IMG/VR virus record: IMGVR_UViG_3300044971_000899
Location: 1 to 30,806 of that record
DNA from: a virus
Reading direction: 5' to 3' (one strand)
DNA: 30,806 nt
A program made the translations under genes and the position numbers. Below are positions 5,279-30,806 of this stretch, one piece after another. The notes under the pieces are model-generated. The model saw only the letters and a list, made by a program, of their open reading frames with translations. It searched no databases and was not told the DNA's origin. The stretch's first letter is position 1. Every line of letters begins with the position of its first letter.

Positions 5279-6061
5279 TTAAGGCTTAACCAGTACCGAT
5301 TTTGCTGGAAATAATCCAGTGCTTAAGTACTGTGTTGCAACAGCAACTGTTACCGAAGATGTTGTTTGTGGAATTAGTCCAAGTGTAGGTGAGTTAAAGT
5401 TAAACACACCAGCATTATTATCTAGGCTTCCATTTACATCTGTAGATGCATCGGATACATTTCCTGGACTTGTAACTGAAACTGTGTCAGCAATACATGC
5501 TGGATAGTCTACCTTTGTCTTAGGTGCATTTCCAGTTGAAACAAATACAGGTATATTCTTTGACTTAAGTGTTGCGATTAGAGATCTAATTGTTGCATCT
5601 GCTTTGCTCACTCCGCCATAAGGTGCTGTGTTTGTTGTTGCTGGAGAGCATGCTTTATTACCATTAAAAAATCTTGATACTGAGACTGCCCCAACTGTGT
5701 TAGAGTTTGCATTAACCCAGTTAAGTGCATCAATAAAGTTTCCAGCATTTACTTCTGACACAGACTTAGAACTTACTGCTGCAGAAACCAGAAGAATAAT
5801 TGGAACACTCGTGCTTTGCTTTTTTGCTACCTCTGCCATGGCGTTTCCATGGTTGACTGCATGTGACAAAGATGTGTTTGAAATTGTAACCACATCTGTG
5901 CAGGCTGTATTGGTAAGTGTAATACACTTAACATTTGATGCACTAACCTTTGAGTCAAAATATGAATCAATAATTACTAGTGCTTTTTGATTTGATGCCT
6001 GTACTGGCTGGATTACAACGAACCCAAGAACTACTGCTAATGCTAACGCTACCTTTTTCAT
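5279..6061 (-). CDS. Secreted subtilase-like (S8) serine protease or pseudo-protease
   Basis: The start at 6061 was chosen because AAAGGGG sits just upstream and the protein then begins with a clean signal peptide (MKKVALALAVVLGFVVIQPVQA, cut after about residue 22, shown with its break at QA/SN). The 260-aa product follows the S8 order: VIIDSYFD (Asp32), NHGNAMAEVA (His71), PVFVSTGN (oxyanion Asn178) and TTSSVTVAVATQYL (Ser235 or 236). The last motif replaces the usual G-T-S-M-A-x-P. It therefore looks like a small exported subtilase with a diverged Ser loop, active or degenerate. There is no membrane anchor or wall-sorting motif. It ends 22 bases before the DUF-type gene and follows the 60-aa gene by 2 bases. 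Possible targets are host S-layer or surface proteins. The fold call is motif-based; activity is uncertain. Confidence 0.65.
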   Translation of the reverse strand: MKKVALALAVVLGFVVIQPVQASNQKALVIIDSYFDSKVSASNVKCITLTNTACTDVVTISNTSLSHAVNHGNAMAEVAKKQSTSVPIILLVSAAVSSKSVSEVNAGNFIDALNWVNANSNTVGAVSVSRFFNGNKACSPATTNTAPYGGVSKADATIRSLIATLKSKNIPVFVSTGNAPKTKVDYPACIADTVSVTSPGNVSDASTDVNGSLDNNAGVFNFNSPTLGLIPQTTSSVTVAVATQYLSTGLFPAKSVLVKP

Positions 6062-6063
6062 TT

Positions 6064-6246
6064 TTACCCCTTTAGTTTTATTACGTATTGACATGGGTCG
6101 CCACCTGCTTCCCACTCTTCTTGCTCTTCTTCTGTCATGTATGGATCGCCATCATGAGTATTACAAAACGGTTCGGTTACCCATCCCCGCTCAATTCCAT
6201 TAGTTAACCATATCTCAAACTCTAAATAGTTATCGTCATCGATCAT
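6064..6246 (-). CDS. Small acidic conserved-type protein
   Basis: A 60-aa protein rich in Asp, Glu and Trp. Two cysteines and a histidine (FCNTHDGD and GGDPCQY) flank the acidic stretch EEEQEEWEAGG. I recall similar short proteins from actinophages, with no known function; the Cys/His pattern may bind a metal. It lies between the Ntn-hydrolase and the subtilase-like gene with very short gaps, so it is probably in the same transcript. A TATAAT box lies directly in front of the start codon, too close to be an ordinary promoter for this gene. Confidence 0.6.
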   Translation of the reverse strand: MIDDDNYLEFEIWLTNGIERGWVTEPFCNTHDGDPYMTEEEQEEWEAGGDPCQYVIKLKG

Positions 6247-6261
6247 ATTATAATTATACCT

Positions 6262-6792
6262 TTAAACGCTTACTACGTCAACTGGACCCATACAAGATGG
6301 ACTAAACTTAATTGCTGCATTAATAGCAGACACTACTCTATTTCTTGCATTTTTTTGTTTATCTGTTGCATACAAAACTCCATATGCGTACTCAGCCCCT
6401 GATCCCATTGCAAGATACGGTAATGTATACTTAGACAAAGACATGTCTGCAGAACTGTGTTCATAAATATTTCCACGGACTGCAATGATCAAACCAAGAT
6501 CACCATCTTTGGATGTATCAACCCAGAACTCGTTATAGAATTCTTTGAGTTCTTTAATAAACTTAGTCTGCATAAACTTATCTGTATCTTTGATAGTTGG
6601 AGCAGTTGGGTGAAAGTTGTATCTAATTCTTTCTCCATCCATTGAACCAGCGTATCCAATAAGGTAGGGGCCAATCTTCCAAACTTTTGGAGCATCAAGT
6701 GCTAGAATCGTACCATCATCGGATGCACCACGATCACCAGCCATAAAGATCTTATTGTTTAATTCATCACGAACTACTGCAATGCAAGTCAT
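6262..6792 (-). CDS. Proteasome-beta / HslV-like Ntn-hydrolase
   Basis: A 176-aa protein matching the proteasome beta and HslV layout. Met1 is followed by the candidate nucleophile Thr2 (MTCIAVVRD). Then come FMAGDRGASDDG with Asp20, PKVWKIGPYLIGYAGS with Lys36 after a short spacer, and YLAMGSGAEYAYGVL, the conserved late Gly-Ser-Gly segment. Removing Met1 would expose Thr as the N-terminal nucleophile, with Asp and Lys near canonical positions 17 and 33. The length fits HslV (about 175 aa). No unfoldase partner is seen in the window, so it may act alone or with a host ATPase. It could equally be a non-proteolytic Ntn-hydrolase. GGGGGA precedes the ATG, and a promoter lies at 6818-6846. Confidence 0.8.
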   Translation of the reverse strand: MTCIAVVRDELNNKIFMAGDRGASDDGTILALDAPKVWKIGPYLIGYAGSMDGERIRYNFHPTAPTIKDTDKFMQTKFIKELKEFYNEFWVDTSKDGDLGLIIAVRGNIYEHSSADMSLSKYTLPYLAMGSGAEYAYGVLYATDKQKNARNRVVSAINAAIKFSPSCMGPVDVVSV

Positions 6793-7888: not shown

Positions 7889-8068
7889 TTACTCCTCTTT
7901 ATTTCTAATAGGACTAGTTATAATCCAAAGACCAAGGGTTGCCATAATTCCATAGCCAACAATAGTCTTTGCGCTACCGTCCAAAACAACCCAGGCAATA
8001 AACATTCCAAGAAGAGTCCATGCCTGATCTACTAGGTCTTTCATTATATTCTTTATTACTTTTACCAT
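7889..8068 (-). CDS. Short membrane protein, holin-like
   Basis: A 59-aa protein starting MVKVIKNIMKDLVDQAW and ending PIRNKEE. It has one or two hydrophobic stretches (LLGMFIAWVVLDG and IVGYGIMATLGLWIIT). The start at 8068 is chosen for the AGGAGG seven to eight bases upstream and because it overlaps the stop of the PA14 gene (ATGGTAA), implying coupled translation. An internal ATG at 8044 lacks a ribosome site. The charge pattern (basic start, charged tail) fits a small class II-type holin or an accessory membrane peptide. It forms a tight pair with the gene at 7587-7886. Confidence 0.6.
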   Translation of the reverse strand: MVKVIKNIMKDLVDQAWTLLGMFIAWVVLDGSAKTIVGYGIMATLGLWIITSPIRNKEE

Positions 8069-10167
8069 TTTCTTCCTCCTCTTGAACCTGGTGAATTGCT
8101 GCCTGAGCCTCCACCAGAACTTCCTCCACCACTAGAGCCTCCTGCTGCTCCTCCTGCTGCAACCGCTGCTGCGTTAATTGCTGCACCTGTTGCTACAACT
8201 GTTGCAACAACCATATCTGTTGCCTCTTCTCTTTCGCTTTCTGTCATGTCGGCACCAATACTTCCAATGGCTGCTAAGGCTGCCCCTGGATCATTGAATA
8301 CTGCTTCTATTAATGCTCCTGGATCTTGAACTAACTCTATATTTGCTGCTACTTCTGCTGTAATTACCAATACCTCGCCAGACTCAGATGTTCTAACTTC
8401 AATTGGTGTTTCTGGTGGAAGGTCTGCATATGAAACTCCAGATGCCTGTACTTGTGCTGCTGATATTGATTCGCCAGGCTTAAGGTCTTCTATTAGTGCT
8501 GCCACCACAACATCTTTTTGCTCTTCAGTTAATTCTTTTCCAGACTCTACGGCTTTTTCTATCTCTTCAACAACCTTTTCTTCTTCTTCTTTAATTGCTG
8601 CTAACTCTTCTGCAATTTCTGCTTCTTCCTCTGCTATGGCTGCTTCTTCTTCTGCTAGAGCATTTGCTATTTCTTGTTCCATAGCCTCTTTCTCAGCAGC
8701 AAGTCTTTCTTCTTCTGCTTTAGCATTTGCCTCTTCTTGTGCTTCTGCTTCTTCTTGTGCAATACGGTCTGCTTCTGCTTGGGCTTCTGCTTCCATCTCT
8801 GCCTCTAATGCTGCAAGATCTGCTGCTATGCGATCAGCCTCAGCATTTGCATCTATCTCTGCTTGTATTCTTGCTGCCTCTTCTGCCATTGCTGCCTCTT
8901 CTTCTGCAACCTTGGCAGCAAGTTCTGCTGCAATTCTATTTGCTTCTGCATTTGCTGCAGCAATTTCTGCAAGCCTATTTGCTTCTGCCTGTGCTGCTGC
9001 AGCCTGTTGTGCAATTAATGCTGCTGTTTCAGCCTGTATTCTTGCTGCTTCTGCTTGTTGTGCTGCTGCTTGGGCTGCAACTTGTGCTGCAATTTCTGCT
9101 TCAGTTGGTCCAGTAGGTGCTACTGTAACTGGTCCTGTTGGAACCGCTGGTGTTGTTACAGTTGTTGTTTCGCTAGGTATTGTAACAGTTGCTGTTTCAG
9201 GTGTTGGTGTTGTAACAGTTACTGTTTCAGGTGTTGGTGTTGTTACGGTTGTTGTTTCAGAGGGGCTGGGAGTCGGAGTAGGGGAAGGCTCTGGAACAGG
9301 TGCTACATATGTAGAACCAGTAACAACATTTGAATTTGTAGAGTAAAGGGCAAATGTATCGTTATCTGATCTAATATGAAATGACCAGACTGTTCCTGCT
9401 GGCATAAGTCCATTTAGCAAAGAATGATCAATTGTAATTGTTGTATTTAATGAATTTGGTCCGCCAACATTTCCAGTAGCAATTCCCCAGCCATTGCACC
9501 CAGTACAATTAAAACTAATTGCATATCTTTCTGGTTGAGTGTTTCCAGTGTCTGGTGCTTCCCAGACCAATACTGTTGATGTCTCATTGCTAGATATAGT
9601 TAAATTTCTTGGAGGTCCTATTGTTTTAACTACTGGTGCTGCTTGTGAAGTAAAGGCTTCTGCTGGGATGATCTGCATTGATCCAGATTGATTCCAGTAA
9701 AGTTTTACATTTGCTCCCCCGCCATTTTCATAATACATTAATTCTATTGTTTTAGGTACTCCCGCTGTAAAAGATATTGGATCAGTTGTAGTTCCTCCGC
9801 CACCTTTGTCAACCCAGTCATTTGCTACTAAAACTCCATCAATGTATAGTTTTGTGCCGTCATCTGCTGTTGCTAAAAATGATATATCTTGAGTAGAATC
9901 GCTTCTAATCGATCCCGTAAAACGAACAATAACATCCTCTGATGGTCCACCTAAAACGCTGCCAAGACCCCACTGAAAGTTAATATTGGATACATTAGTA
10001 GTGACGACTGGAGAGGCTCCTTGGGGTATATAAGGGGCATCATTCTGTCCCAGCACATTATAAACCTGAGCAGTTAAACCTTCTGCTGCGTGGGCTTTAT
10101 CAATTATTAAAAGCAGGGGAAATAGAGCAAGGGATAAGACCAGTGCTACTCTCAATAACTTTTTAAT
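8062..10167 (-). CDS. Secreted PA14 / Fn3-like / coiled-coil surface protein
   Basis: About 701 aa. A start at ATT (10167) gives MKKLLRVALVLSLALFP, a classic signal peptide ending in AHA, with AAGGAG six bases upstream. The nearest conventional start (TTG, 10155) is 18 bases from that site. Domains in order: a PA14-like carbohydrate-binding beta-barrel (about 28-175, ISFLATADDGTKLYIDG and VKLYWNQSG); an Fn3-like domain (about 183-285); a Pro/Thr/Glu linker with 30-bp DNA repeats; a long Ala/Glu coiled coil (about 350-545); a mixed domain (GKELTEEQKDVVVAALIED onward); and a Gly/Ser tail ending SRGGRKW. It could be a host-surface or glycan-binding protein made during infection, or a virion fibre, though a signal peptide is unusual for virion parts. 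The domains are seen; the role is inferred. Confidence 0.78.
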   Translation of the reverse strand: MKKLLRVALVLSLALFPLLLIIDKAHAAEGLTAQVYNVLGQNDAPYIPQGASPVVTTNVSNINFQWGLGSVLGGPSEDVIVRFTGSIRSDSTQDISFLATADDGTKLYIDGVLVANDWVDKGGGGTTTDPISFTAGVPKTIELMYYENGGGANVKLYWNQSGSMQIIPAEAFTSQAAPVVKTIGPPRNLTISSNETSTVLVWEAPDTGNTQPERYAISFNCTGCNGWGIATGNVGGPNSLNTTITIDHSLLNGLMPAGTVWSFHIRSDNDTFALYSTNSNVVTGSTYVAPVPEPSPTPTPSPSETTTVTTPTPETVTVTTPTPETATVTIPSETTTVTTPAVPTGPVTVAPTGPTEAEIAAQVAAQAAAQQAEAARIQAETAALIAQQAAAAQAEANRLAEIAAANAEANRIAAELAAKVAEEEAAMAEEAARIQAEIDANAEADRIAADLAALEAEMEAEAQAEADRIAQEEAEAQEEANAKAEEERLAAEKEAMEQEIANALAEEEAAIAEEEAEIAEELAAIKEEEEKVVEEIEKAVESGKELTEEQKDVVVAALIEDLKPGESISAAQVQASGVSYADLPPETPIEVRTSESGEVLVITAEVAANIELVQDPGALIEAVFNDPGAALAAIGSIGADMTESEREEATDMVVATVVATGAAINAAAVAAGGAAGGSSGGGSSGGGSGSNSPGSRGGRKW
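9181..9260 (-). repeat. 30-bp tandem repeats coding a T/P/E/V linker
   Basis: Two units (9181-9210 and 9211-9240) differ by one base, and a third, more diverged unit follows. They encode the decapeptide TPTPETVTVT-type linker between the Fn3-like and coiled-coil parts. Such repeats expand and contract easily, so linker length may vary between related phages. Confidence 0.75.
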
Positions 10168-10231: not shown

Positions 10232-10259
10232 AAAAAAGGGAGCCTATTGCTAGACTCCC
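10232..10259 (-). terminator. Intrinsic terminator after the S-layer-like gene
   Basis: On the minus strand GGGAG-T-CTA / GCAA loop / TAG-G-CTCCC forms a 9-bp stem with one G-T wobble and a GNRA-type tetraloop (10238-10259). A run of six T follows (10232-10237). It lies 22 bases past the stop of the gene at 10282-11985. This is the clearest terminator in the window and isolates the surface-protein gene from the next one. Confidence 0.85.
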
Positions 10260-10281
10260 CTAATTGTTGGACTATTAAGAG

Positions 10282-11985
10282 TTACTTCTTAAGAATCTTG
10301 TTCACAAGAGCAGTCAACGCTGTCAACTGCTTCTTTAGATTTGCAAGTGCTGTGTTAACAGACTTTGTAAGTGCTGCAACTGCTGCAGAAGCATTTTCTG
10401 CTGCAAGTGTTGCTGCATCTGCTGCCTTTACTGCCTCAAGAGCAGCATCTGTTGCTGCGTTAGCAGCCTTTGCTGCATCCTCAGAAGCCTTTGTAGCAGC
10501 CTTAGCAGCAGTGTTTGAAACAACTGCTGATGCTGTAACTACAACCTGACCTGCTACTGGAAGAGATGATCCACCAGTTGCTGAGATTGTTACTGTATTT
10601 TCTGTCAATGGCATAAATACCTTGTATGACTTTACAGTTTCTGTATCAGTTGTGATTGATGTTGCTGTAAGAACATCTGAACCTGAACCAAATGCATAAG
10701 TAGAAACAATTCCACCTGTTGCAAATGCGTTAGCGTGTGTCTTTCCAGATACTGGTAGACCTGCTGCATCAAGAATCTGAACCTTAATGGTTGCTGCTTC
10801 TCCTGGGACATATTCAGTCTTGTCAAATGACAACTTAACTGTTGCTGCTGCTGCCTCTACACGAGTAGAAACTGGAGCAGATACAATTGTTCCTGCTGCA
10901 TTTCTAACTGTAACTGCAACTCCGCCAGCCTTGACACCTGTAAGTGTAAATACTGCTTCACCGTTTACGATTGTTGCTGCTGTACCTGAATCAGATACTG
11001 TTAGAACATCGGATGAGTTAGCATAAAGTGTTCCTGCTCCAACTGTTACGCCAGATGCATCCTTAGCAACTGCCTTTACAGTGGTTGTGTTTGCACCAAC
11101 TGCGATAACAGACTTAACTGGAGTAGCAACGATTGTTGCGATATCACCATAGAATGTTACCTGCTCTGTTGCAAGAACTGTACCTGTAAGTGTTGTAAGA
11201 GTAATTGTTCCAACTCCTGCTGTACCGTCAGCAAATACACCAATGTGATTTCCTGTAGGGATTACCAATGCACGACCAAGAGCAGAGATAGTTGTAGCGT
11301 TTGTGCCATAACCAATCAAGCCTGTTCCTGAAACTGTTGCAAGAATTGATTCAGTTGCTGATCCGCCTGCTGCATTCTTAGGTGTAACAACAATTACTGC
11401 TGCTGCATCTGTAGAGGTAGCCTTTGGAGCAAACACAGAATCATCTGCTGTTGCTGTAGTAACTTCACCACGGTTAAGAATTGAAGTTGTTGTTGCTGCA
11501 GAAGGTGTGATATCTGCTGCCTTAACTGTTACTGTCCATGCAACTGATGGACCTGTTGATGGGCGAGTTGTTAGAATACGTGCTTCATATGTACCAGCAA
11601 CTGATGGAGCAACCAATGAAACTGTGAACTTTGCAGTTACATATCCTGGTGTACCAACTGTTGAATTAACATCTGCTGAAAGTGAACCTGCTGCAATTGC
11701 AACTGTAGAGGTTGTTGTTTCAAGCAATGATAGTGTTGCTGACTTGTTTGAGCCTGAAGGCTGTGTGAAAATAGCAGATAGCACAGTTGCTGTGTCTGCT
11801 GCTGTTTCCGAAATAAATGACAATGTAACTACTGCTGTAGCAGTCTCACCAGCGGTGATTGTATCTGTAGCAGAGTCAATCGTTAGCGTTGGTGCGATTA
11901 CAGCAGCACTTGTCGGAAGTGCTGAAATAACGCCAAAGGTCATCGCTGCAGCAAGACCTAGGGCAATTTTCTTAAATGAATTCAT
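10282..11985 (-). CDS. S-layer-like secreted protein with Ala-rich coiled-coil tail
   Basis: A 567-aa protein with a strong AAGGAG before its ATG. Residues 1-27 are a signal peptide (MNSFKKIALGLAAAMTFG..., cut after PTSA). The mature part is almost all short, Thr/Ala/Val/Ser-rich beta-strand segments (about 28-490) recalling repeated Ig-like or invasin-like domains, for example LTIDSATDTITAGETATAVV and LSFDKTEYVPGEAATIKVQI. It has very few Cys, Trp or His residues. The last 75 residues form an Ala-rich coiled coil ending in LTALVNKILKK. This architecture is what I recall for abundant surface/S-layer-type proteins of freshwater Actinobacteria. It lies 14 bases after the terminase, with no clear promoter of its own, and ends in a strong terminator. 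A role in host-surface replacement, superinfection exclusion or capsid decoration is inferred. Confidence 0.72.
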   Translation of the reverse strand: MNSFKKIALGLAAAMTFGVISALPTSAAVIAPTLTIDSATDTITAGETATAVVTLSFISETAADTATVLSAIFTQPSGSNKSATLSLLETTTSTVAIAAGSLSADVNSTVGTPGYVTAKFTVSLVAPSVAGTYEARILTTRPSTGPSVAWTVTVKAADITPSAATTTSILNRGEVTTATADDSVFAPKATSTDAAAVIVVTPKNAAGGSATESILATVSGTGLIGYGTNATTISALGRALVIPTGNHIGVFADGTAGVGTITLTTLTGTVLATEQVTFYGDIATIVATPVKSVIAVGANTTTVKAVAKDASGVTVGAGTLYANSSDVLTVSDSGTAATIVNGEAVFTLTGVKAGGVAVTVRNAAGTIVSAPVSTRVEAAAATVKLSFDKTEYVPGEAATIKVQILDAAGLPVSGKTHANAFATGGIVSTYAFGSGSDVLTATSITTDTETVKSYKVFMPLTENTVTISATGGSSLPVAGQVVVTASAVVSNTAAKAATKASEDAAKAANAATDAALEAVKAADAATLAAENASAAVAALTKSVNTALANLKKQLTALTALVNKILKK

Positions 11986-11999
11986 CTTTCTCCTTGTTT

Positions 12000-13778
12000 T
12001 TATAATAAATTGAATTTGTCCAGGAAATCACGCACATCATCCGTCATTTGCCTAGGTTCTAATTCTATCATACTTCTCTTTTTCTGTGCAAGTTGAGCAG
12101 CAGAAGCAGACCAAGTATGTACTTCAATAACTGTATTAGTAGTCTTTGGGGTATGTGATATAGCCCCAAATACTGCACCAGATACAGCATCTGCTAAGTC
12201 TTTAGATTTTTTACGGGGGTGATCAACACGATTGCCCTTCATAATCTTTAACTCAGACATTTCTTCTAGCAGTAATGGAATCATAGGAATTGCTACACGC
12301 TCTTCATATACCATCATTGCTAAATCTTCATAGTGTTTTTTTGCAACAGAAACAGTTTCAGTTCTAATTCCAACTGCCTGTAACTCATTCTGAATGTCAA
12401 AAGATTGCCATCGGTCAAAAGAAACCATGCCAATATTAAATCCCTGTCTACGCAAATTCATAATCCACTGTTTAACTTCCGAAAGGTTAACTGGACCTTC
12501 AGACTTTGGTTCCCACCAAGCAACAGCATCAACAATGACCATTGGTGCTACCTGTTCATAGTCTTTGATTACCTGAATGTTCACCCACTTATCTACGTGA
12601 GCAATAGCAACAGCACACTTGTCGTGCTTCTGTGCAAGGTCTGCATGGATATAGTATGTCTTGTCTGGGTCTGGTTTAAATGACTCATCAAACCTTCTAA
12701 ATTGATCTAGAGGGTTTCTAATTGTCATTACCTTTTCTAGTTTTGTTTTATCTTTAAAGAAGGCATCTGATGCATAGGTTGGCATACATGCAAAACGCAT
12801 CATCGCATCACCAAGGTCTGTATAAAATGCTATCTTAAAATCATCAATATGACGAGTTGGGTTTACTTCCCATGTAGGTCTTTTAAATGCTAGGACTCTT
12901 GGTATCTTGTATGAGATGATTGTGTCTTCATCCCACGAAATTTCAAACCTATTGCCTGGATCTTCATGTGGCAAGTCTTCATTGATAATGAATGTATGCT
13001 TGCGCTCTATAGTTTCTTTTTCTGCAATTACAGACTCATATTTTTGAGATATAAAGTCGCCTTGATATCTTGGGAATGATAGCAATGCCACCTTACCAAG
13101 ATCAGGGAAACGAGAATCTACAGTACCACGGAATGCTTTGTAAATGTTTTCTGCAGTCTTTCCTTGTTCATTACCAGTACCAACTTCTGAAGCAAAACCA
13201 GAGATTTCATCAAGTACCGCCATGAATAGGTTCAAACCCTCATGTGATTCACGCTCTGAGTGACCAGAGTAAACTGTTACAGACTTATCAAAATCAATTG
13301 AATCTGCCTTTGGGTTGTACTTTCCTGCAAACCATGGTGATCTTTCAATCTTAGACTTAAAACCTTTAAAGAAAACATTCTTAGCCTGCTGAGCATTAAT
13401 AGCAACGTTAATAATGTCAATAGCATCTCCTGCTGGCTTACCATAATAAACAGCGGGATCCTTTAGGCATAGCAACTTATATACTACATATGCACATGCT
13501 ACGGTAGATACAAAGTCCTTACCGCTACCTTTGCCAAGTTGCAAAATAATTTCATTCTTTGTAAATTTTCTATAGTATGCTTCTCCAGCAACATCCCCCA
13601 GCAAAGTCTGAAGATCTTCTTTCTTGTATATCTGACTCATTGCTTCTACAATTTGATATTGAATATCGGATAGTGGTGGCTGTCCAAGATAGTCTGGAGA
13701 CTCTACAAATGTCTTTGCATCTACAGGAGTTTCTACAAAATGATTTTCCTTAAGTACTTCAAGGAACTCATTGAACAT
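12000..13778 (-). CDS. terL: Terminase large subunit
   Basis: A 592-aa packaging motor: an ATPase that pumps DNA and a nuclease that cuts concatemers. The ATPase part has a Walker A-like GKGSGKD (82-88) and Walker B LFMAVLDEIS (184-193, Asp190/Glu191). The RNase H-fold nuclease shows YYIHADLAQKHDKCAVAI with Asp381, VSFDRWQS with Asp456, and a final acidic cluster in KDLADAVSGA (about 528-531). The ATG at 13778 overlaps the small-subunit stop by 11 bases. A TTG three codons upstream is possible, but neither has a strong ribosome site, so coupling is likely. The length is normal for the family. Confidence 0.93.
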   Translation of the reverse strand: MFNEFLEVLKENHFVETPVDAKTFVESPDYLGQPPLSDIQYQIVEAMSQIYKKEDLQTLLGDVAGEAYYRKFTKNEIILQLGKGSGKDFVSTVACAYVVYKLLCLKDPAVYYGKPAGDAIDIINVAINAQQAKNVFFKGFKSKIERSPWFAGKYNPKADSIDFDKSVTVYSGHSERESHEGLNLFMAVLDEISGFASEVGTGNEQGKTAENIYKAFRGTVDSRFPDLGKVALLSFPRYQGDFISQKYESVIAEKETIERKHTFIINEDLPHEDPGNRFEISWDEDTIISYKIPRVLAFKRPTWEVNPTRHIDDFKIAFYTDLGDAMMRFACMPTYASDAFFKDKTKLEKVMTIRNPLDQFRRFDESFKPDPDKTYYIHADLAQKHDKCAVAIAHVDKWVNIQVIKDYEQVAPMVIVDAVAWWEPKSEGPVNLSEVKQWIMNLRRQGFNIGMVSFDRWQSFDIQNELQAVGIRTETVSVAKKHYEDLAMMVYEERVAIPMIPLLLEEMSELKIMKGNRVDHPRKKSKDLADAVSGAVFGAISHTPKTTNTVIEVHTWSASAAQLAQKKRSMIELEPRQMTDDVRDFLDKFNLL

Positions 13779-14304
13779 CGTGGACAACTGTAATCACTTC
13801 TCCTTCTCGTGCAATTGCAGACAAGCGTTGCATAATTATGTCACGAACTTCTGGATGCTCCGAAGCAATATCTCTTAATATGCCAACAAGAACTTCTTGA
13901 CGGCGCTCAATCTCAACTACTTCTTCTGCAAGTTCTTTGTTCTCTAAAAGTCCAGCCTTTTGAAGCATGTCAATTCTTTTAGACTCAATATCCATAACAA
14001 GTTTAATTGCAGCAGTCTTTGCGCTAAGATTATTAGTCATAGTCGCTTCATCAATAACTTCATAAGATTTTGAAATAAGTTTTGTGTAGTGTGTGTCTGC
14101 TCCAACCAACGCTTCTTTTGCTCTAGCACGAATTGCAGCATTGTCAGAAGCCATGGCTTTCCACTCATTAATAAGTGTAACAACACGAGTGCGTGGAATG
14201 TCTAATTCTTTTGAAATTACGGTTGGATCATTTCCCTTTAAGTACTCGCTTACAACAGTATTTACCTGATCAAGGTGTTTAACTATGTCTTCTTCAGTTG
14301 ACAT
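13768..14304 (-). CDS. Terminase small subunit-like DNA-binding protein
   Basis: A 178-aa protein directly before TerL. The N-terminal 50 residues contain a helix-turn-helix (PTVISKELDIPRTRVVTLI) as in small terminases that recognise the packaging site. The middle and C-terminal parts are long charged helices (AIKLVMDIESKRIDMLQKAG, then ELAEEVVEIERRQEVL) suited to ring oligomerisation. GAAGG precedes the ATG, which overlaps the end of the DUF3310 gene. The position and helix-turn-helix support the call; a generic regulator is the less likely alternative. Confidence 0.78.
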   Translation of the reverse strand: MSTEEDIVKHLDQVNTVVSEYLKGNDPTVISKELDIPRTRVVTLINEWKAMASDNAAIRARAKEALVGADTHYTKLISKSYEVIDEATMTNNLSAKTAAIKLVMDIESKRIDMLQKAGLLENKELAEEVVEIERRQEVLVGILRDIASEHPEVRDIIMQRLSAIAREGEVITVVHDVQ

Positions 14305-14536: not shown

Positions 14537-14648
14537 CGTCTTCCCAATCAAATACTTCTGGCAAACCTCTTAGTGCTGTAACAACATAGGTTAACCCTAC
14601 TGCACCAGCAAGTCCTAAACCAATAACTACCTTTTGCAATTTGTTCAT
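14529..14648 (-). CDS. 39-aa single-span membrane peptide
   Basis: A small gene: a basic start MNKLQKVV, one hydrophobic helix (IGLGLAGAVGLTYVV) and an acidic end (LPEVFDWEDDE). The same plan of one helix followed by an acidic FDW tail is familiar in actinophages. Its ATG shares an ATGA with the stop of the upstream HTH gene, and its stop lies inside the DUF3310 gene, so it is held in a chain of coupled genes. The function is unknown. Confidence 0.65.
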   Translation of the reverse strand: MNKLQKVVIGLGLAGAVGLTYVVTALRGLPEVFDWEDDE

Positions 14649-14800
14649 CGTCTTGACTTCCTTAATCCAAATTTAGCAAGGTAAACATAGATAGTCTCTA
14701 CGCTTGCCCCACACTCTTTAGCAATATCTTCTGGACTCCTCTTGTCCATTAAATACCGCTTGCGTAGCCAAACTTCGCTTGTATATAGTTTACCAGTCAT
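14645..14800 (-). CDS. 51-aa helix-turn-helix protein
   Basis: A short basic protein with a clear helix-turn-helix: WLRKRYLMDKRSPEDIAKEC followed by the recognition helix GASVETIYVYLAKFGL and a basic end RKSRR. It resembles the sigma-like/resolvase-type HTH domains found alone in many actinophages. It may be a small transcription regulator. The stop overlaps the next start (ATGA). Confidence 0.7.
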   Translation of the reverse strand: MTGKLYTSEVWLRKRYLMDKRSPEDIAKECGASVETIYVYLAKFGLRKSRR

Positions 14801-14804
14801 AGTA

Positions 14805-15374
14805 CTATTTGTCAACCCCTATTGCCTTTGTCCAGTTGCTTAGAGCCCAATGACCAATACCGCAAGCATCGGCTACATCATTATCTTCAATCTGCCTATC
14901 ATAAATAGTATTAATAAACTTAATGGTTCTTTCTTTTCTAAGGTTTCTTTCATACGACTTATACCATGATACAGATTTGGCAGGGTTAGCGGAACGAATA
15001 ACCAACTGCTCTTCCTTAGATATTTTTTTATTACCAATAAAGTTTTGCCATGTAATGGGAGAAACCTTTCCAACAATCTGTGTTCCAGTCTGACCTGCTG
15101 CACCCAAGATAGCACCTTGAACTAATGCTAAGTCTGCAGCAGTTTTAGGGCTATTCATAAATACCGTATGCTCAATTATAATTGCTTCAAAACCACCATA
15201 GTGATCAAACACAGCCTTAACTCTTTCGCCAGCATTTAAAACCTTTTCATATATATCATTGCCTTCAAACTGTATTTTTCCTATAAAGCCTAGTTCTTTA
15301 GATTTGGTATTAAATAAAGCAAAAGCAAGATTGTTTGTGCTAGCATCTATAGCACAAATGGTCTCTGGCATCAT
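14805..15374 (-). CDS. RuvC-like Holliday junction resolvase
   Basis: A 189-aa RNase H-fold nuclease with the RuvC pattern: ICAIDASTNNLAFALF with the first catalytic Asp (Asp10), AIIIEHTVFMNSP with Glu68, and a C-terminal EDNDVADACGIGHWAL carrying the last acidic residues. It would resolve branched DNA before packaging. I chose the ATG at 15374 because GGGGAG lies five bases upstream. A longer form from 15401, with AAAGGGG ten bases upstream, is possible and would overlap the zinc-ribbon gene. A second nuclease candidate of similar purpose lies at 16836-17120. Confidence 0.82.
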   Translation of the reverse strand: MMPETICAIDASTNNLAFALFNTKSKELGFIGKIQFEGNDIYEKVLNAGERVKAVFDHYGGFEAIIIEHTVFMNSPKTAADLALVQGAILGAAGQTGTQIVGKVSPITWQNFIGNKKISKEEQLVIRSANPAKSVSWYKSYERNLRKERTIKFINTIYDRQIEDNDVADACGIGHWALSNWTKAIGVDK

Positions 15375-15387
15375 GGGAACTCCCCAC

Positions 15388-15678
15388 TTACTCTTGTTCA
15401 TATTCTATGAACCCCTTTAACTCTTTTAGCATTTTTGCCACTTGCTTTGCACTAACATTACAATTTGCACAAAACCCTGAATCATTATAAATAGATAGAG
15501 ATGTATCACAACCGCCAAGACATTTACGAACCTTTCCGATTCTTTTTTGTCTTTTTGTTGCTTGATATCTTTCAGCAATTTTTTCTCTTGTAGATTCTTC
15601 TCTACAAGTTTCGCTGCAGTATATCTGATAAGTTACTTTCGGATGAAAGTAGGCTTCACATCTACTACATAGTTTCAC
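15388..15678 (-). CDS. Double zinc-ribbon protein
   Basis: A 96-aa basic protein with two metal-binding clusters. The first is CSRC...YCSETCREE near the N-terminus and the second is KCLGGCDTSL...FCANCN (about 53-74). A basic helix lies between them. It starts at GTG, with GGAGG six bases upstream, and overlaps the Cas4-like gene by 14 bases. Such proteins recur among actinophage replication genes and probably bind nucleic acid or act as adaptors; no enzyme motif is seen. Confidence 0.72.
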   Translation of the reverse strand: MKLCSRCEAYFHPKVTYQIYCSETCREESTREKIAERYQATKRQKRIGKVRKCLGGCDTSLSIYNDSGFCANCNVSAKQVAKMLKELKGFIEYEQE

Positions 15679-26098: not shown

Positions 26099-26580
26099 CC
26101 TTGATAAACCCTTAAAAAATTAGTGTCTCTAGATATTGGAGAACCCTTTAGATAAATTTCAACAGAAAGTCTATTTGGTGCTGAGGCTTGAACAATATTG
26201 TTTTTAGTATATGTTGTTGGAGTAATCAAAGAAATGTTTGACGTATCTACTCTTGAACGATATTTCCAGTCTCCACCATCTTCTCTATCCCACTTTACCC
26301 AAACATCATAAGATAACGCTTCTTTAATTAAAACTGATCCCTTTTTAATTTCAACAGAGTTCCAGGCAACTGTGCTTACATCCCCAGCCTTGCTATGATG
26401 AATTGTTCCAGGCACATATGTAAATTCTGGTTTAACTAAAAAGATGGGAGACCAATGAGAGGTTCTGTTCTTATCTTCAGATACTATTCTATAGCGCACT
26501 TCATACCCCTGAGTTATAGAATTAATTGCTGGAAGCCTGGACTCAAGTATTTTTGCTTTTTTAATTGTCTCATTAGTCAT
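26080..26580 (-). CDS. Virion structural protein, Fn3-like strands
   Basis: A 166-aa beta-rich protein. YEVRYRIVSEDKNRTSHWSP and SYDVWVKWDREDGGDWKYRS resemble the strands of fibronectin type III domains common in tails. It begins at an ATG that shares a base with the stop of the upstream tail protein (TAATG). The gene lies in the tail cluster, so a role in tail or fibre assembly is inferred. There is no signal peptide. Confidence 0.6.
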   Translation of the reverse strand: MTNETIKKAKILESRLPAINSITQGYEVRYRIVSEDKNRTSHWSPIFLVKPEFTYVPGTIHHSKAGDVSTVAWNSVEIKKGSVLIKEALSYDVWVKWDREDGGDWKYRSRVDTSNISLITPTTYTKNNIVQASAPNRLSVEIYLKGSPISRDTNFLRVYQGGPWTV

Positions 26581-27743
26581 TAAGAAACGCCTATCGAAAA
26601 TCTAAACTCAATGTAATTACTTGTATTTGGTGATTTAATTATTGTAGATGCTGTTTCATTTTGAATAACAGAATAACCAGTCAAACCGTATAGTGGATTT
26701 AAAGATGAAACATTTTCTAATCTCATTGCATCTAAAGCAACGTAGTAGTCGGAAGATGGTGTGCTTCCTGTCAGTGTTGTTACATATATTTTTGCAACAG
26801 TAACCGCATCCCATGTAAAATTTGAACTTACATAAAGGCTCTGCAACTCTTTTGAAATAACAAAATATCTATTTGAATCAAAATCATATTCTCCAGGACC
26901 AGTTCCATTTACAAGTTCTGCCTCAAACCTAGCAAATGCATCTGGAGAGGAAGAGTCTGTTGAAGCAAAATCAACTAAAACTCTAACAATATCTGGAGAA
27001 GATGCGTTTTGCAATGTCTTAGATTCTCCATCTTTGTTGATAATAGAAAATGCCAAACGAAGTTGATCTGTTGGAGAGTTTTTACTAAAGTCAACACTTG
27101 GTCCAGTTAGGTGTATGTGGTTGGATCCGTCTTCAATTATAAAATGATCCTGTCCTGGTCCGCTCTCAGAACTAATTGTTAAGTCAGCGTCATCTCCTCT
27201 CATCACAATAACATTATTAAAAAATCTTGGCCTTTCGTATCTTTCTAGTCTTGAAGGTACATAAAAAATTGTATTATCAGCATTAGTTTGAAATACTGGA
27301 TTATCAGTTGCAATAACGTTATCACCATTTGGAGAATCAAGAGGCTCTGTTATTGACTCAATTGCTACTGCAGAAGCGCTGGCATGATATTGCCAGTTCT
27401 CTGTTTGTGTAAATGCAAAAACAGTTTTGCTATCATATGCTCCAGCAGATGAGTTTACTCCAGCAGAATATATTCCTACCTCTGTTATTTCGTATCTTTC
27501 TTCTGTGGGCATTTCTGCTGTCAAAACAATCTTCTCTAGTCCGTCTTCATTGATAAAGCCTCTTGAGGATATTGGAACTCTAAACATCTCAAAGTCAAGA
27601 TTTTTTTGCTCAGAGTAGTCTCCCAAGGCATCACTTGTCAGCAATGGCTTTTTCCCACACCCAACCGCAATATACGATGCATACGCAGGTGCCTGACCTA
27701 AAAGGTATTTGCCAATAATAGACTTACCCGAATTAGTTATCAT
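26580..27743 (-). CDS. Tail/fibre-type structural protein
   Basis: A 387-aa protein. The first 130 residues (MITNSGKSIIGKYLLGQAP, then YASYIAVGCGKKPL) look like the start of a family of phage tail proteins I know from metagenomes. The rest is beta-rich with a jelly-roll-like part near VRVLVDFASTDSSSP and a DYYVALDAMRLENVSSLNPL end, as seen in fibre or adhesin modules. It overlaps the upstream gene by 4 bases (ATGA), and GGAAG precedes the start. The receptor-binding or fibre role is inferred. Confidence 0.62.
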   Translation of the reverse strand: MITNSGKSIIGKYLLGQAPAYASYIAVGCGKKPLLTSDALGDYSEQKNLDFEMFRVPISSRGFINEDGLEKIVLTAEMPTEERYEITEVGIYSAGVNSSAGAYDSKTVFAFTQTENWQYHASASAVAIESITEPLDSPNGDNVIATDNPVFQTNADNTIFYVPSRLERYERPRFFNNVIVMRGDDADLTISSESGPGQDHFIIEDGSNHIHLTGPSVDFSKNSPTDQLRLAFSIINKDGESKTLQNASSPDIVRVLVDFASTDSSSPDAFARFEAELVNGTGPGEYDFDSNRYFVISKELQSLYVSSNFTWDAVTVAKIYVTTLTGSTPSSDYYVALDAMRLENVSSLNPLYGLTGYSVIQNETASTIIKSPNTSNYIEFRFSIGVS

Positions 27744-28252
27744 GATTCTTCCATTCCAAGTTGTGACTCATATATTGTACCATTTATGATAATTTGTATT
27801 TCTACCTGTTCATCTGCCTCTAAATTTACAGCCTCAACAACAATATCTCCTGTTTGAATATCTGAATAAACATATTTATTGTTTGGTCCTGTTGGAAAAG
27901 ATGGAACTTTTCTGTCAAGTTTAATAGGAAAATTATTAAAATATTTATTTGAGGTAGACTGTAAAGCAAGTATGTTGTTTGGATTATACTGTTGTTCAAT
28001 ATCAGATAAATTTTTAATCAACTGATAGGATACTGACTGACCATTAACTGTATCATTTCTAGCAATATTTATTAATTCTTGTCCACCAATATCTTCAAAA
28101 ATAAGATCAGTCATTAACTCTATGGGAACTAGATCATCATCAAATAAAATGTTTCCAGGGATAGAGGTCTTGACTTGATTTGTAGCATTTGATGTCACAT
28201 ATGCCAAACCTGAGTTTGACGGAGTTTCTGGTGTTGAACTAACTGCTGCCAT
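27740..28252 (-). CDS. Tail-cluster structural protein
   Basis: A 170-aa soluble protein with no motif I recognise. It has an N-terminal low-complexity Ser/Thr/Asn segment, then alternating strands (LVPIELMTDLIFEDIGGQEL, DIQTGDIVVEAVNLEADEQV, IQIIINGTIYESQ). It sits one base after the large tail protein, with GAGG upstream, and overlaps the next gene. Its position implies a tail or fibre-assembly part. Confidence 0.5.
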   Translation of the reverse strand: MAAVSSTPETPSNSGLAYVTSNATNQVKTSIPGNILFDDDLVPIELMTDLIFEDIGGQELINIARNDTVNGQSVSYQLIKNLSDIEQQYNPNNILALQSTSNKYFNNFPIKLDRKVPSFPTGPNNKYVYSDIQTGDIVVEAVNLEADEQVEIQIIINGTIYESQLGMEES

Positions 28253-28253
28253 T

Positions 28254-30806
28254 TTATACCTCGCTCACATAAACTTTCATATTAGGTCCTTCAGGATTTC
28301 TAGAGTATTCAATATTGTATACTACAAACCTAGATGACTCGGGAGAAACTAAGTCTAAGCCACTATCATCCTTGTAGTTAATAGAAACAATGTCTCCCAG
28401 TTGAATCGTTGGTATTGCAAATATATCAAGACCAACAGATTTTTTAGGTTTCATTAATTTATCAATCATCCACCCCATTAACGACTCTGCAGAATCACTT
28501 GTTTGAATGTACGGACTGCTAATTGAAAATTCATTTTTTCCATAAATCATTCTACTTTGCTTGATCTGGTCATACTTAAGTCGTTCAACAACGGGAGAAA
28601 CAATAACCTCATTGCCTTTAAGTTCTGGGTCTGCAAAATTGCTTCTCTTTTTAAAGTATTCATCTACGGTAAGTTCTTGAGTTGTGTCTTGTGTAAATGT
28701 GATTCCCTGTATTCTTAAAAAGTTTCCTGTTGTTTCGTCAAGCGCTAAGGCTTTGTCGGTTGCATTAAAAATTAAAAACTCTGCTCCGTATGAGTTTGCT
28801 TGAAATCCAGATGTTGTATATCCTTTAATTCTATTAAATGTTGGAGATAGTTGTGCATACAATGCTGGATAAGCACGATCATACCTAATATCAAAATAGG
28901 CACACTCTCTCATGATTGTTCCAAATTCATCAAAATACATATTGTATTTTGGAGATTGCTGGGAACTAACTCCCGATAAGTAGGTTGACTGTACTGCTCC
29001 GCTTACAGCATACTTTCTAAATGAGTCATTTAGATTTATTCCACCATCGCCGAATGCTTGTGATAATGTATCTGTAACTGTGGACACTGTATTCTGAGAA
29101 TAGTTTTGTGCAACAGAATAAACATTTTCAAACATGCATCTTGATGAGCCACGAGTAAAAAGCGCTATGTTATTGTAGACTGGAAGTGGATCTACGTCAT
29201 CTACTATCTGAATAAGTTTATTATTTACATATAGATAGAACTTTCTTGTTTTTCCAATATCTTGATACTCTACAGATAAATCATATACCGTTGGATTTTC
29301 TTCACCCGTCATACGATATTGTCCAGTAAATCGACCATCGTCTACCAAGATATTTGTTAGGCCTCCCCAAAGTTTTACTGGAATTGCTTCTGTAGTTCCT
29401 GTTTTTTGCATTACTTTATAAAAAACTATATTGTTTACTAACTCTCCATTAGAGTAAGACTCAATATTATTTTCTGTTAAAGCAATTATTTCAAAATAAT
29501 ATCCATTATTAGTTTCTGGGTTAATCAAAACAGCAAGACCACCAGAACCACCACCTATGCTTGAATTTTGATTAGACAATGATCCAGTAACCTGGTAGTA
29601 CGAAGTACTTCCAATTGGTGTCTGAGATCTTCCAACATTATTTTCAATTTTTCCAACGACCCTAATTCTTGTTCCAAAATGTTTGTAGGCATTATCCAAC
29701 TTCTTATATACATATGATAGAAAGTTTACTGGTGTTTCTGTTGTCTTAAATGATGGACCATTTAATATTAAGGCAGATGATTGAACAGTTCCTGATTGTG
29801 TTGTTTTTAATTTATTTACTTCAGTTTCTGTTAAATAATTTGTAGCCATGAAGTTTTTAATAACTCCATTTCTAGTTGTCTGTTTAGCAAGCGAGTCATT
29901 TTTACCTGCAGTGCCAACAGACAGTCCTAGAGATTTAACTTCAGCCTGTACACTTTCTGTTGAAGACAAACTAAATAAATATTCTTTAGCCTTCATGTCA
30001 CAGCCACGAACATTGTCTGGATTTGACCAGTACTCGTTTATACCAGCAGAGTGAGAAGTTATTGCTGTTCCAAATTGACCTCTACCGTGAGATTCTACAG
30101 CACCATTTTTAAACCTTGTGATTCCTGAAACTGTTTCATAATATGGTGTAGAGAAAATTCTTACAAGTCCAGTAGGGTATATCTTTCCGTTGAATGGTAA
30201 AGAAGAAAAGTATTGCTGGTATTCTTCATTACTTGATATCCACACATTACTACCACCCTGCCTATTACTATTTCTCCAAGACCTTATGTCTTCTTCTTTT
30301 GTAATATTCATTGGTGCAAGTTTTCCAGGAAGTACTACTTGGGGCTTTGATGTATCAAGTGATCCATCAGTTTTGATTGGGTACCAAATTGGCAAAGTCA
30401 CATTAAACTGTACGGCATCATATTTAATAATTTCAGCATTAGCATAAAAGTATCCACTGTATCTTGTTAGCCAATAAACATTTTCACCAAGATCAATAAT
30501 ATTATTAGTTAAAACATTGTTAACTACAGTTGGTGCAGAACCTGATATATCAGAGTTAATTGGCATTGCACCTAAAACATAACTGCTTTGCTTAGAGGCA
30601 ATCTCATTGATTGTTTTTGTATTTTCTGTACCCGAAACTTCCCACAGCAAAGATGGCTTATAGATCCAAGTCTTATCTTGATCAATCATAGTTGATTGTC
30701 TGATAGACCCATAGGATCTTTGGATATATCTGCTGGTATAACTAATATTTCCATCATTAAATATTTTTTTATCTTCTGAAGATATAGACAATATGTTTGG
30801 CAGTTT
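28254..30806 (-). CDS. Large minor tail protein, 5' end outside window
   Basis: The frame is open to the window edge (at least 850 codons). The TTG at 30791 is not a convincing start: the frame continues upstream as L-P-N-I, so the real start is beyond the edge. The protein is beta-rich. Two jelly-roll or LamG-like segments are suggested by VVGKIENNVG and GGLAVLINPETNNGYYFEII (about 380-450), and by RKFYLYVNNKLIQIVDD (about 515-530). The C-terminal 200 residues (FDEFGTIMRECAYFDIRYDR, then IPTIQLGDIVSINY) recall tail-hub or baseplate modules. No lytic motif is evident. It is the first gene of the visible tail cluster. Confidence 0.65.
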   Translation of the reverse strand, partial: KLPNILSISSEDKKIFNDGNISYTSRYIQRSYGSIRQSTMIDQDKTWIYKPSLLWEVSGTENTKTINEIASKQSSYVLGAMPINSDISGSAPTVVNNVLTNNIIDLGENVYWLTRYSGYFYANAEIIKYDAVQFNVTLPIWYPIKTDGSLDTSKPQVVLPGKLAPMNITKEEDIRSWRNSNRQGGSNVWISSNEEYQQYFSSLPFNGKIYPTGLVRIFSTPYYETVSGITRFKNGAVESHGRGQFGTAITSHSAGINEYWSNPDNVRGCDMKAKEYLFSLSSTESVQAEVKSLGLSVGTAGKNDSLAKQTTRNGVIKNFMATNYLTETEVNKLKTTQSGTVQSSALILNGPSFKTTETPVNFLSYVYKKLDNAYKHFGTRIRVVGKIENNVGRSQTPIGSTSYYQVTGSLSNQNSSIGGGSGGLAVLINPETNNGYYFEIIALTENNIESYSNGELVNNIVFYKVMQKTGTTEAIPVKLWGGLTNILVDDGRFTGQYRMTGEENPTVYDLSVEYQDIGKTRKFYLYVNNKLIQIVDDVDPLPVYNNIALFTRGSSRCMFENVYSVAQNYSQNTVSTVTDTLSQAFGDGGINLNDSFRKYAVSGAVQSTYLSGVSSQQSPKYNMYFDEFGTIMRECAYFDIRYDRAYPALYAQLSPTFNRIKGYTTSGFQANSYGAEFLIFNATDKALALDETTGNFLRIQGITFTQDTTQELTVDEYFKKRSNFADPELKGNEVIVSPVVERLKYDQIKQSRMIYGKNEFSISSPYIQTSDSAESLMGWMIDKLMKPKKSVGLDIFAIPTIQLGDIVSINYKDDSGLDLVSPESSRFVVYNIEYSRNPEGPNMKVYVSEV

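Follow-up and report, generated by a model that had tools for sequence, protein, structure and literature searches.

A putative phage-borne allele of a hypervariable S-layer-like surface protein of the Nanopelagicales

Recombination-driven variation of the bacterial surface layer is known from sapA of Campylobacter fetus and the slpA cassettes of Clostridioides difficile, both of which are chromosomal. These loci resemble those described below in combining constant ends with swapped surface-layer bodies, but differ in that here phages also hold alleles. A phage-borne protein of S-layer type is found in Melnitz, a marine phage of OM43, whose Gene_23 is a putative S-layer gene postulated by its authors to protect against superinfection (PMC9004378), meaning that the general idea of S-layer-based exclusion by phages is already in print. 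Although Gene_23 is similar in kind to the gene considered here, phage and host are both different, the comparison is by description only, and the available parts of that account name no host homologue, allelic slot or sharing of a tail (PMC9004378). According to the accessible portion of PMC10202952, the Nanopelagicales dominate freshwaters worldwide, have genomes without CRISPR-Cas and have had few phages assigned to them. No account of a surface-allele system shared by these bacteria and their phages was found amongst the top matches listed from the open-licence PMC literature, and the available parts of PMC6802176, PMC11411942 and PMC9703825 bear on it in general terms at most, or not at all.

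The stretch of DNA analysed here in its entirety (the window) is a complete IMG/VR viral record (IMGVR_UViG_3300044971_000899) of 30806 bases, in which every assigned protein lies on the minus strand (minus-strand ORFs were searched, plus-strand ORFs only listed). The gene for the large terminase subunit, terL (12000–13787, minus strand; phrog_2), serves as the marker of the phage group and directly precedes the gene of interest, termed the slot gene. The product of terL is approximately 54 % identical to that of Stanwilliamsviridae (Streptomyces phages), and a DnaE-like polymerase displays up to 57 % identity to Streptomyces phages, including Karimac, which is filed under Stanwilliamsviridae. 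With both markers related, and a similar polymerase–RecA–Cas4–RuvC–terminase order, the window is Stanwilliamsviridae-like, although its closest records are only 54–57 % identical; Karimac, unlike the window, harbours an HNH gene and tRNAs 3′ of terL and lacks the slot gene. In the window, the slot gene is placed between the packaging and lysis genes. Near the latter lies an HslV/proteasome-like peptidase gene (6262–6792), which many relatives also possess. Elsewhere in the window, a fast-diverging secreted protein (5279–6115, and 14578–15459 in the related locus L012) shows 26–63 % identity between the relatives compared; the 5279–6115 protein has no Pfam match, and its pattern is reminiscent of a degenerate subtilase.

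The slot gene itself (10282–11985, minus strand) has an ATG start and encodes 567 aa, and its start codon (11985–11983) is separated by 14 nt from the terL stop, which ends at 12000; size, position and spacing are thus as given in the first-pass annotation, which had not recorded the strand. A Shine–Dalgarno sequence, AAGGAG, is located at 11990–11995 (minus strand), with SD-like sequence preceding the slot gene in 115 of 116 loci. Directly 3′ of the gene lies an intrinsic terminator (10236–10261, minus strand), formed by a hairpin of 11 pairs followed by TTTT. This had been described as the only strong terminator of the window, and it does rank first amongst terminator-like sites there, but the raw number of such sites is no higher than in shuffled sequence; what places the hairpin above chance is its conservation behind the slot gene, a terminator-like hairpin being found in 110/116 related loci compared with 0/114 control stretches inside terL.

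The encoded protein has three parts. Residues 1–27 (11905–11985, minus strand) resemble, when read by eye, a Sec/SPI signal peptide with its KK, hydrophobic core and TSA/A, in keeping with the clean signal peptide previously claimed, and the start of this phage-type leader is kept in all body classes described below; the most hydrophobic 19-residue stretch after it is weaker (1.35 versus 1.77). Residues 28–489 (10519–11904, minus strand) constitute the body, and residues 490–567 (10285–10518, minus strand) an Ala-rich helical tail of 78 residues that, by identity to host tails, is common to phage and host proteins. The composition of the whole (A 19 %, T 17 %, V 11 %, no Cys) fits the Thr/Ala/Val beta repeats initially noted, and an AlphaFold2 model (mean pLDDT 72, pTM 0.40) places beta strands at 33–489 and a single helix at 492–566, in agreement with the proposed beta body and coiled tail.

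A structure prediction had been called for in search of Ig-like repeats, and Foldseek and VIA comparisons of the model do return strings of Ig-like domains: complement C3/C5, the Bacillus anthracis S-layer protein Sap (9g93), SbsC (5ftx), invasin (1cwv), FdeC and, as the highest VIA row, an Ig domain of the bacteriophage Chi neck protein (Z 11.9 over 93 residues), in a list from which a true structural neighbour may be absent. Sap, SbsC and invasin share the Ig-like string with the slot protein, but at 13–16 % identity and through a generic fold that also extends to complement, such that these predicted neighbours would be indicative of fold class rather than of function. A weak Pfam match to the bacterial Ig-like family Big_1 (residues 289–371; 10873–11121, minus strand) lies under the curated cut-off, and the same family is matched in 9/14 control genomes; one host relative (L133) exceeds the cut-off at 45.6 bits. 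Pfam yielded no SLH, CWB2 or other known S-layer anchor, whether in the slot protein (E-values up to 1) or in another five proteins from phages and hosts (up to 0.1), and a reading based on such domains was rejected. Similarly, no PHROG family was matched at up to 0.1, and a sequence search of solved structures returned only a chance-like hit (E 0.33).

The first-pass annotation had proposed a search of Nanopelagicales proteomes. Genomes of the order were reached by way of a 16S probe, which we take to be acI-852, and those of 11/17 probe loci were searched. A model of the slot protein finds one match each in 8/11 (E 8.6e-16 to 2.3e-84), of which five are near full-length, starting at residue 3 or 22 and reaching the end, whilst three are partial (151–568, 377–568 and 468–568); an initial scan with two short patterns, a weak test, had given no match and is contradicted by this result. 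All six named chromosomes (LanE-43, IMCC26103, IMCC25003, IMCC19121, Ca. P. versatilis and Ca. P. lacus) hold one relative, four full-length and two partial, with the match in LanE-43 limited to the last 101 positions of the model. Across the order, the whole-protein model matches 73/296 genomes and the tail model 77/296, exactly once in 68 of these 77, leaving 219/296 without a match. A sample of the class gave matches in 13/178 genomes, all of them order members already seen. It is thus very likely, on sequence grounds, that the slot protein is a homologue of a usually single-copy surface protein of the Nanopelagicales, which lends good support to the proposal of a secreted, S-layer-like host-surface protein; the term ‘S-layer-like’ refers to resemblance in architecture and fold, with any lattice being putative.

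In the host, the gene appears within a recurrent neighbourhood. A sigma-70 family gene lies beside it in 13/14 contexts, with relatives of a Wzy_C-like membrane protein and of a UDP-sugar dehydrogenase each present in 10/14, as named from the P. versatilis locus alone, where Wzy_C scores 30.0 bits, just under its cut-off of 31.7. Amongst 50 order genomes without a match to the surface protein, 47 also lack one to the sigma gene, suggesting that the genes of the locus are acquired or lost together, or are jointly absent from the assembly. In one of the remaining three (G047), the sigma gene precedes long proteins of leader type that end in a different tail. Within the locus, variation is very uneven: in the five closest host pairs the sigma genes are 94–99 % identical and the tails 96–97 %, whilst the bodies share only 27–46 % in four pairs and 73 % in the fifth. 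For 250 random pairs of 60 host proteins, the median identities of leader, body and tail are 0.72, 0.27 and 0.47, respectively. By these alignments, the host locus combines a conserved leader and tail with a hypervariable body.

Relatives of the slot protein are encoded on at least 387 IMG/VR viral stretches, and the best 80 of these were used for locus comparison. In this set, terL lies directly 5′ of the slot gene in 74/77 loci with enough sequence, and a gene of the PA14 family directly 3′ in 65/69. Three loci (L050, L056 and L057) have neither neighbour, their slot-type gene, unchanged in body and tail, being located near a thioredoxin-like gene instead of terL, and L008 lacks the PA14-family gene. 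Amongst 50,697 records of isolated phages, which may or may not include the two cultured Planktophila phages, no relatives were detected at E 1e-3 for the window protein, the LanE-43 host allele or the allele of phage L153. The 3′ neighbour in the window (8062–10155, minus strand; PF07691, E 3.5e-8) lies outside the slot and is a secreted PA14/coiled-coil protein; alignment reveals an N-terminal head that varies (PA14 in the window, but different stretches in its relatives), a coiled stalk of Glu/Ala and, at the C-terminus, a conserved region that closes with Gly-rich sequence resembling GSRGGRKW. As a candidate second host-derived gene it was rejected, with only weak and local matches in 2/151 genomes.

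The start of the gene behind terL is near invariant: amongst 140 distinct terL loci with at least 400 nt of sequence beyond terL, the next gene, once trimmed, begins with MNSF in 136 and with VNSF or MNSL in four. As this set mixes loci fetched by slot similarity with those fetched by terL, two sets retrieved through terL only are less biased, although each still comprises the best 80 out of at least 600. Where terL is ≥83 % identical to that of the window, the leader gene lies behind it in 71/71 informative loci (nine of the 80 being left out, seven as too short and two as duplicates). In the more distant set it is found in 31/69 informative loci (11/80 left out), those carrying it having a terL 73–78 % identical to that of the window. 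By a reading of the gene listing, the other 38 comprise 21 with another leader-like ORF, 12 with a putative nrdI directly behind terL, four with another gene and one with a leaderless ORF; nrdI, like nrdE, is presumed from its motif. Near the window, therefore, the slot is filled in every case, and further out it is accessory. Distant relatives such as L332, L340, L343 and L367 have a different leader-like protein of approximately 300 aa in the slot, ahead of putative nrdI/nrdE, and in some further ones the slot gene is absent.

Clustering of 133 slot proteins of sufficient length for comparison at 45 % gives five body classes, 0–4, with 91, 21, 11, 5 and 5 members (four groups result at 40 % on the terL-fetched loci). 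Between classes, DNA identity falls from 0.87 in the SD stretch and 0.83 in the first 27 nt to 0.61 for the remaining leader, 0.56 for the body and 0.57 for the tail, the last two being near the shuffled values of 0.51–0.54. From this pattern, the bodies can be read as cassettes swapped behind a constant start. In the window class (class 0), median dN/dS over 150 pairs is 0.26 for the body and 0.10 for terL, indicative of purifying selection; these are Nei–Gojobori values from non-independent pairs, and codon bias would lower dS. Divergence of the body is uncorrelated with that of the adjacent terL in the same 150 pairs (r −0.02 for pS and 0.03 for pN), suggesting that the slot gene moves separately from terL.

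Phage and host alleles were compared for tail and body separately. Over its last 72 residues, the window protein shares 78 % identity with that of Ca. P. versatilis, whilst the best host identity of its body, 39 %, is to a different genome; in phage L077, likewise, the tail is 92 % identical to LanE-43, and the best host body (38 %) lies in another genome. Class 0 tails are of type A in 61/91 and type B in 22/91. For 25 of the 61 type-A tails, mean best identity to 80 host tails is 0.73 (0.61–0.90), as opposed to 0.36 (maximum 0.44) for shuffled tails and at most 0.40 for the unrelated Ala-rich coil of the PA14 protein. The type-B tail (W-N-x-K-N-P-K-x-K) is common to class 0 (L071, L034, L021 and L045) and many class 1 proteins (e.g. 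L175); searches for its bacterial source gave 0/296, 0/394 and one weak match in 296 genomes (986 genome searches, some genomes repeated), and its host may be another lineage.

Bodies of classes 0, 3 and 4 match 65, 24 and 44 of 80 host ORFs, respectively, those of class 1 match 0/80 and those of class 2 a single one weakly; these ORFs were found with class 0 and type-A-tail models, which puts any hosts of classes 1 and 2 at a disadvantage, and amongst them are fragments, overlapping copies and an unrelated protein of 2337 aa. Clear relatives in hosts are thus seen for classes 0, 3 and 4, and practically none for classes 1 and 2. Maximum body identities of classes 0, 3 and 4 are 0.41, 0.63 and 0.42 to host proteins versus 0.33, 0.32 and 0.35 to other phage classes, whilst for classes 1 and 2 the values are 0.27 and 0.30 to hosts versus 0.30 and 0.31. 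This comparison covered 12/91, 12/21, 11/11, 5/5 and 5/5 members of classes 0–4, and takes the maximum on both sides, which shrinks the class 0 and 4 margins relative to an earlier version setting a host maximum against a phage mean. The slot protein of L153 is 61 % identical to host protein L308 at full length and 84 % over the last 80 residues, but 29 % in the leader. The one class 4 protein compared, L279, shares 41 % of its body but only 33 % of its tail with its nearest host by body, L128. Overall, phage copy and host locus are alike in kind of leader, Ig-like body, Ala-rich tail and body variation between constant ends, so that by architecture and homology the phage copy belongs to the surface family. 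They differ in that the phage leader is MNSFKK and the host leader MSTKTTFKR, and in that the phage copy sits behind terL with no sigma-70 gene before it or Wzy_C-like gene behind it. Its place between terL and the PA14 gene makes it a homologue carried by the phage, and not an orthologue at the host locus. The view of a phage S-layer-like gene accordingly stands as regards host-surface type, but is refined from a lone phage invention to an allele occupying a phage slot that parallels the hypervariable locus of the host.

Taken as a whole, the chances are somewhat better than even that the slot gene is a phage-borne allele of the hypervariable S-layer-like host protein, recoating the infected cell and probably excluding superinfection. 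The viruses of this group probably infect the commonest lake bacteria, the Nanopelagicales. The protein would probably be made in quantity during infection from a terminated unit behind terL, exported by the host Sec system, as the leader suggests, and placed on the cell through a coiled tail of host type, either alongside the host protein or in its place, as tail identity suggests. With a leader, no equally hydrophobic second stretch, and a tail and body of host type, an exported coat protein is the straightforward reading, and display on the infected cell is likely. Since the exposed body is unlike the resident allele and the tail is kept, the cell would show a different face. Receptors for other phages, siblings included, would most likely be hidden or replaced, and progeny would not be wasted on debris or on cells already infected. 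Hiding or replacing receptors would call for just such a foreign face, borne by an anchor that matches the host, and superinfection exclusion is therefore preferred as the main benefit, at odds close to, if not quite, even.

Ranked second is maintenance or reinforcement of the coat, whereby host transcription has stopped, an intact coat is needed until lysis, and the phage supplies its own, with the difference in body being incidental. The host-type tail, the high output suggested by a strong SD and own terminator, and the position between packaging and lysis genes all agree with this, but alone it leaves unexplained five body classes in one slot and divergence independent of terL, and we regard it as unlikely. 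Masking, in which a changed coat alters recognition of infected cells by protists (or in an antibody-like manner), draws on the same surface variation and hypervariable host locus as does exclusion; no finding links the slot gene to grazing, however, and infected cells live only briefly, making this improbable. No better are the prospects of a virion protein, i.e. an Ig-like decoration or fibre with an incidental leader, whose host-type tail binds the host coat at attachment. Ig-like domains are common on virions, the top VIA row is the phage Chi neck protein and the gene adjoins terL, but a signal-peptide-type leader is kept across all classes, there is a host chromosomal homologue (near full-length in five of eight matches) and the PHROG-named tail genes of the window lie away from the slot gene, at 26580–30806. 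A soluble decoy, shed at lysis to absorb free phage of competitors or neutralise receptor copies on debris, would accord with the leader and the weaker later hydrophobic stretch, but conserved host-type tails favour retention on cells over release, and it is very improbable.

Returning to the recoating allele, a wider form of this reading, held tentatively and at slightly less than even chances, is that phages and hosts draw on one pool of surface-layer alleles, whose constant leaders and tails would serve the protein as functional ends and the gene as arms for recombination. Hosts would reshuffle the bodies, some of them through an inversion switch worked by a tyrosine recombinase, and the phage would keep an exchangeable allele in its fixed slot with which to recoat the cell, giving it a foreign face on an anchor of host type. 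Were this so, the host of uncultured phages could be read from their tail type. More generally, the tail is a sequence tag that may link such phages to host lineages, and a phage-borne coat allele would offer a testable mechanism for phage–phage competition in lakes and a concrete candidate for a host receptor or coat under selection. In this way, a vague annotation becomes a defined hypothesis of two-sided gene exchange.

Several host loci display further rearrangement. In L292, L309, L317 and L413, a gene matching Phage_integrase (PF00589, tyrosine recombinase) sits between two surface-protein genes that converge on it, and inverted repeats of 181–312 nt (88–92 % identity) extend over the 3′ ends of the surface genes. 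L292 and L309 have a second inverted pair over the leaders (157 nt at 95 % and 175 nt at 96 %, respectively), whilst L320 contains three surface-protein genes, two integrases and two inverted pairs. From their arrangement, these recombinase-flanked loci (L413 4829–6337, L292 4334–5964, L309 3308–4753, L317 1436–3029, and L320) look like candidate invertible S-layer switches. In the host genome of L298, the sigma gene and surface-protein gene are duplicated in tandem, with 84 % DNA identity over 2 kb in an alignment assigned to this locus by its coordinates.
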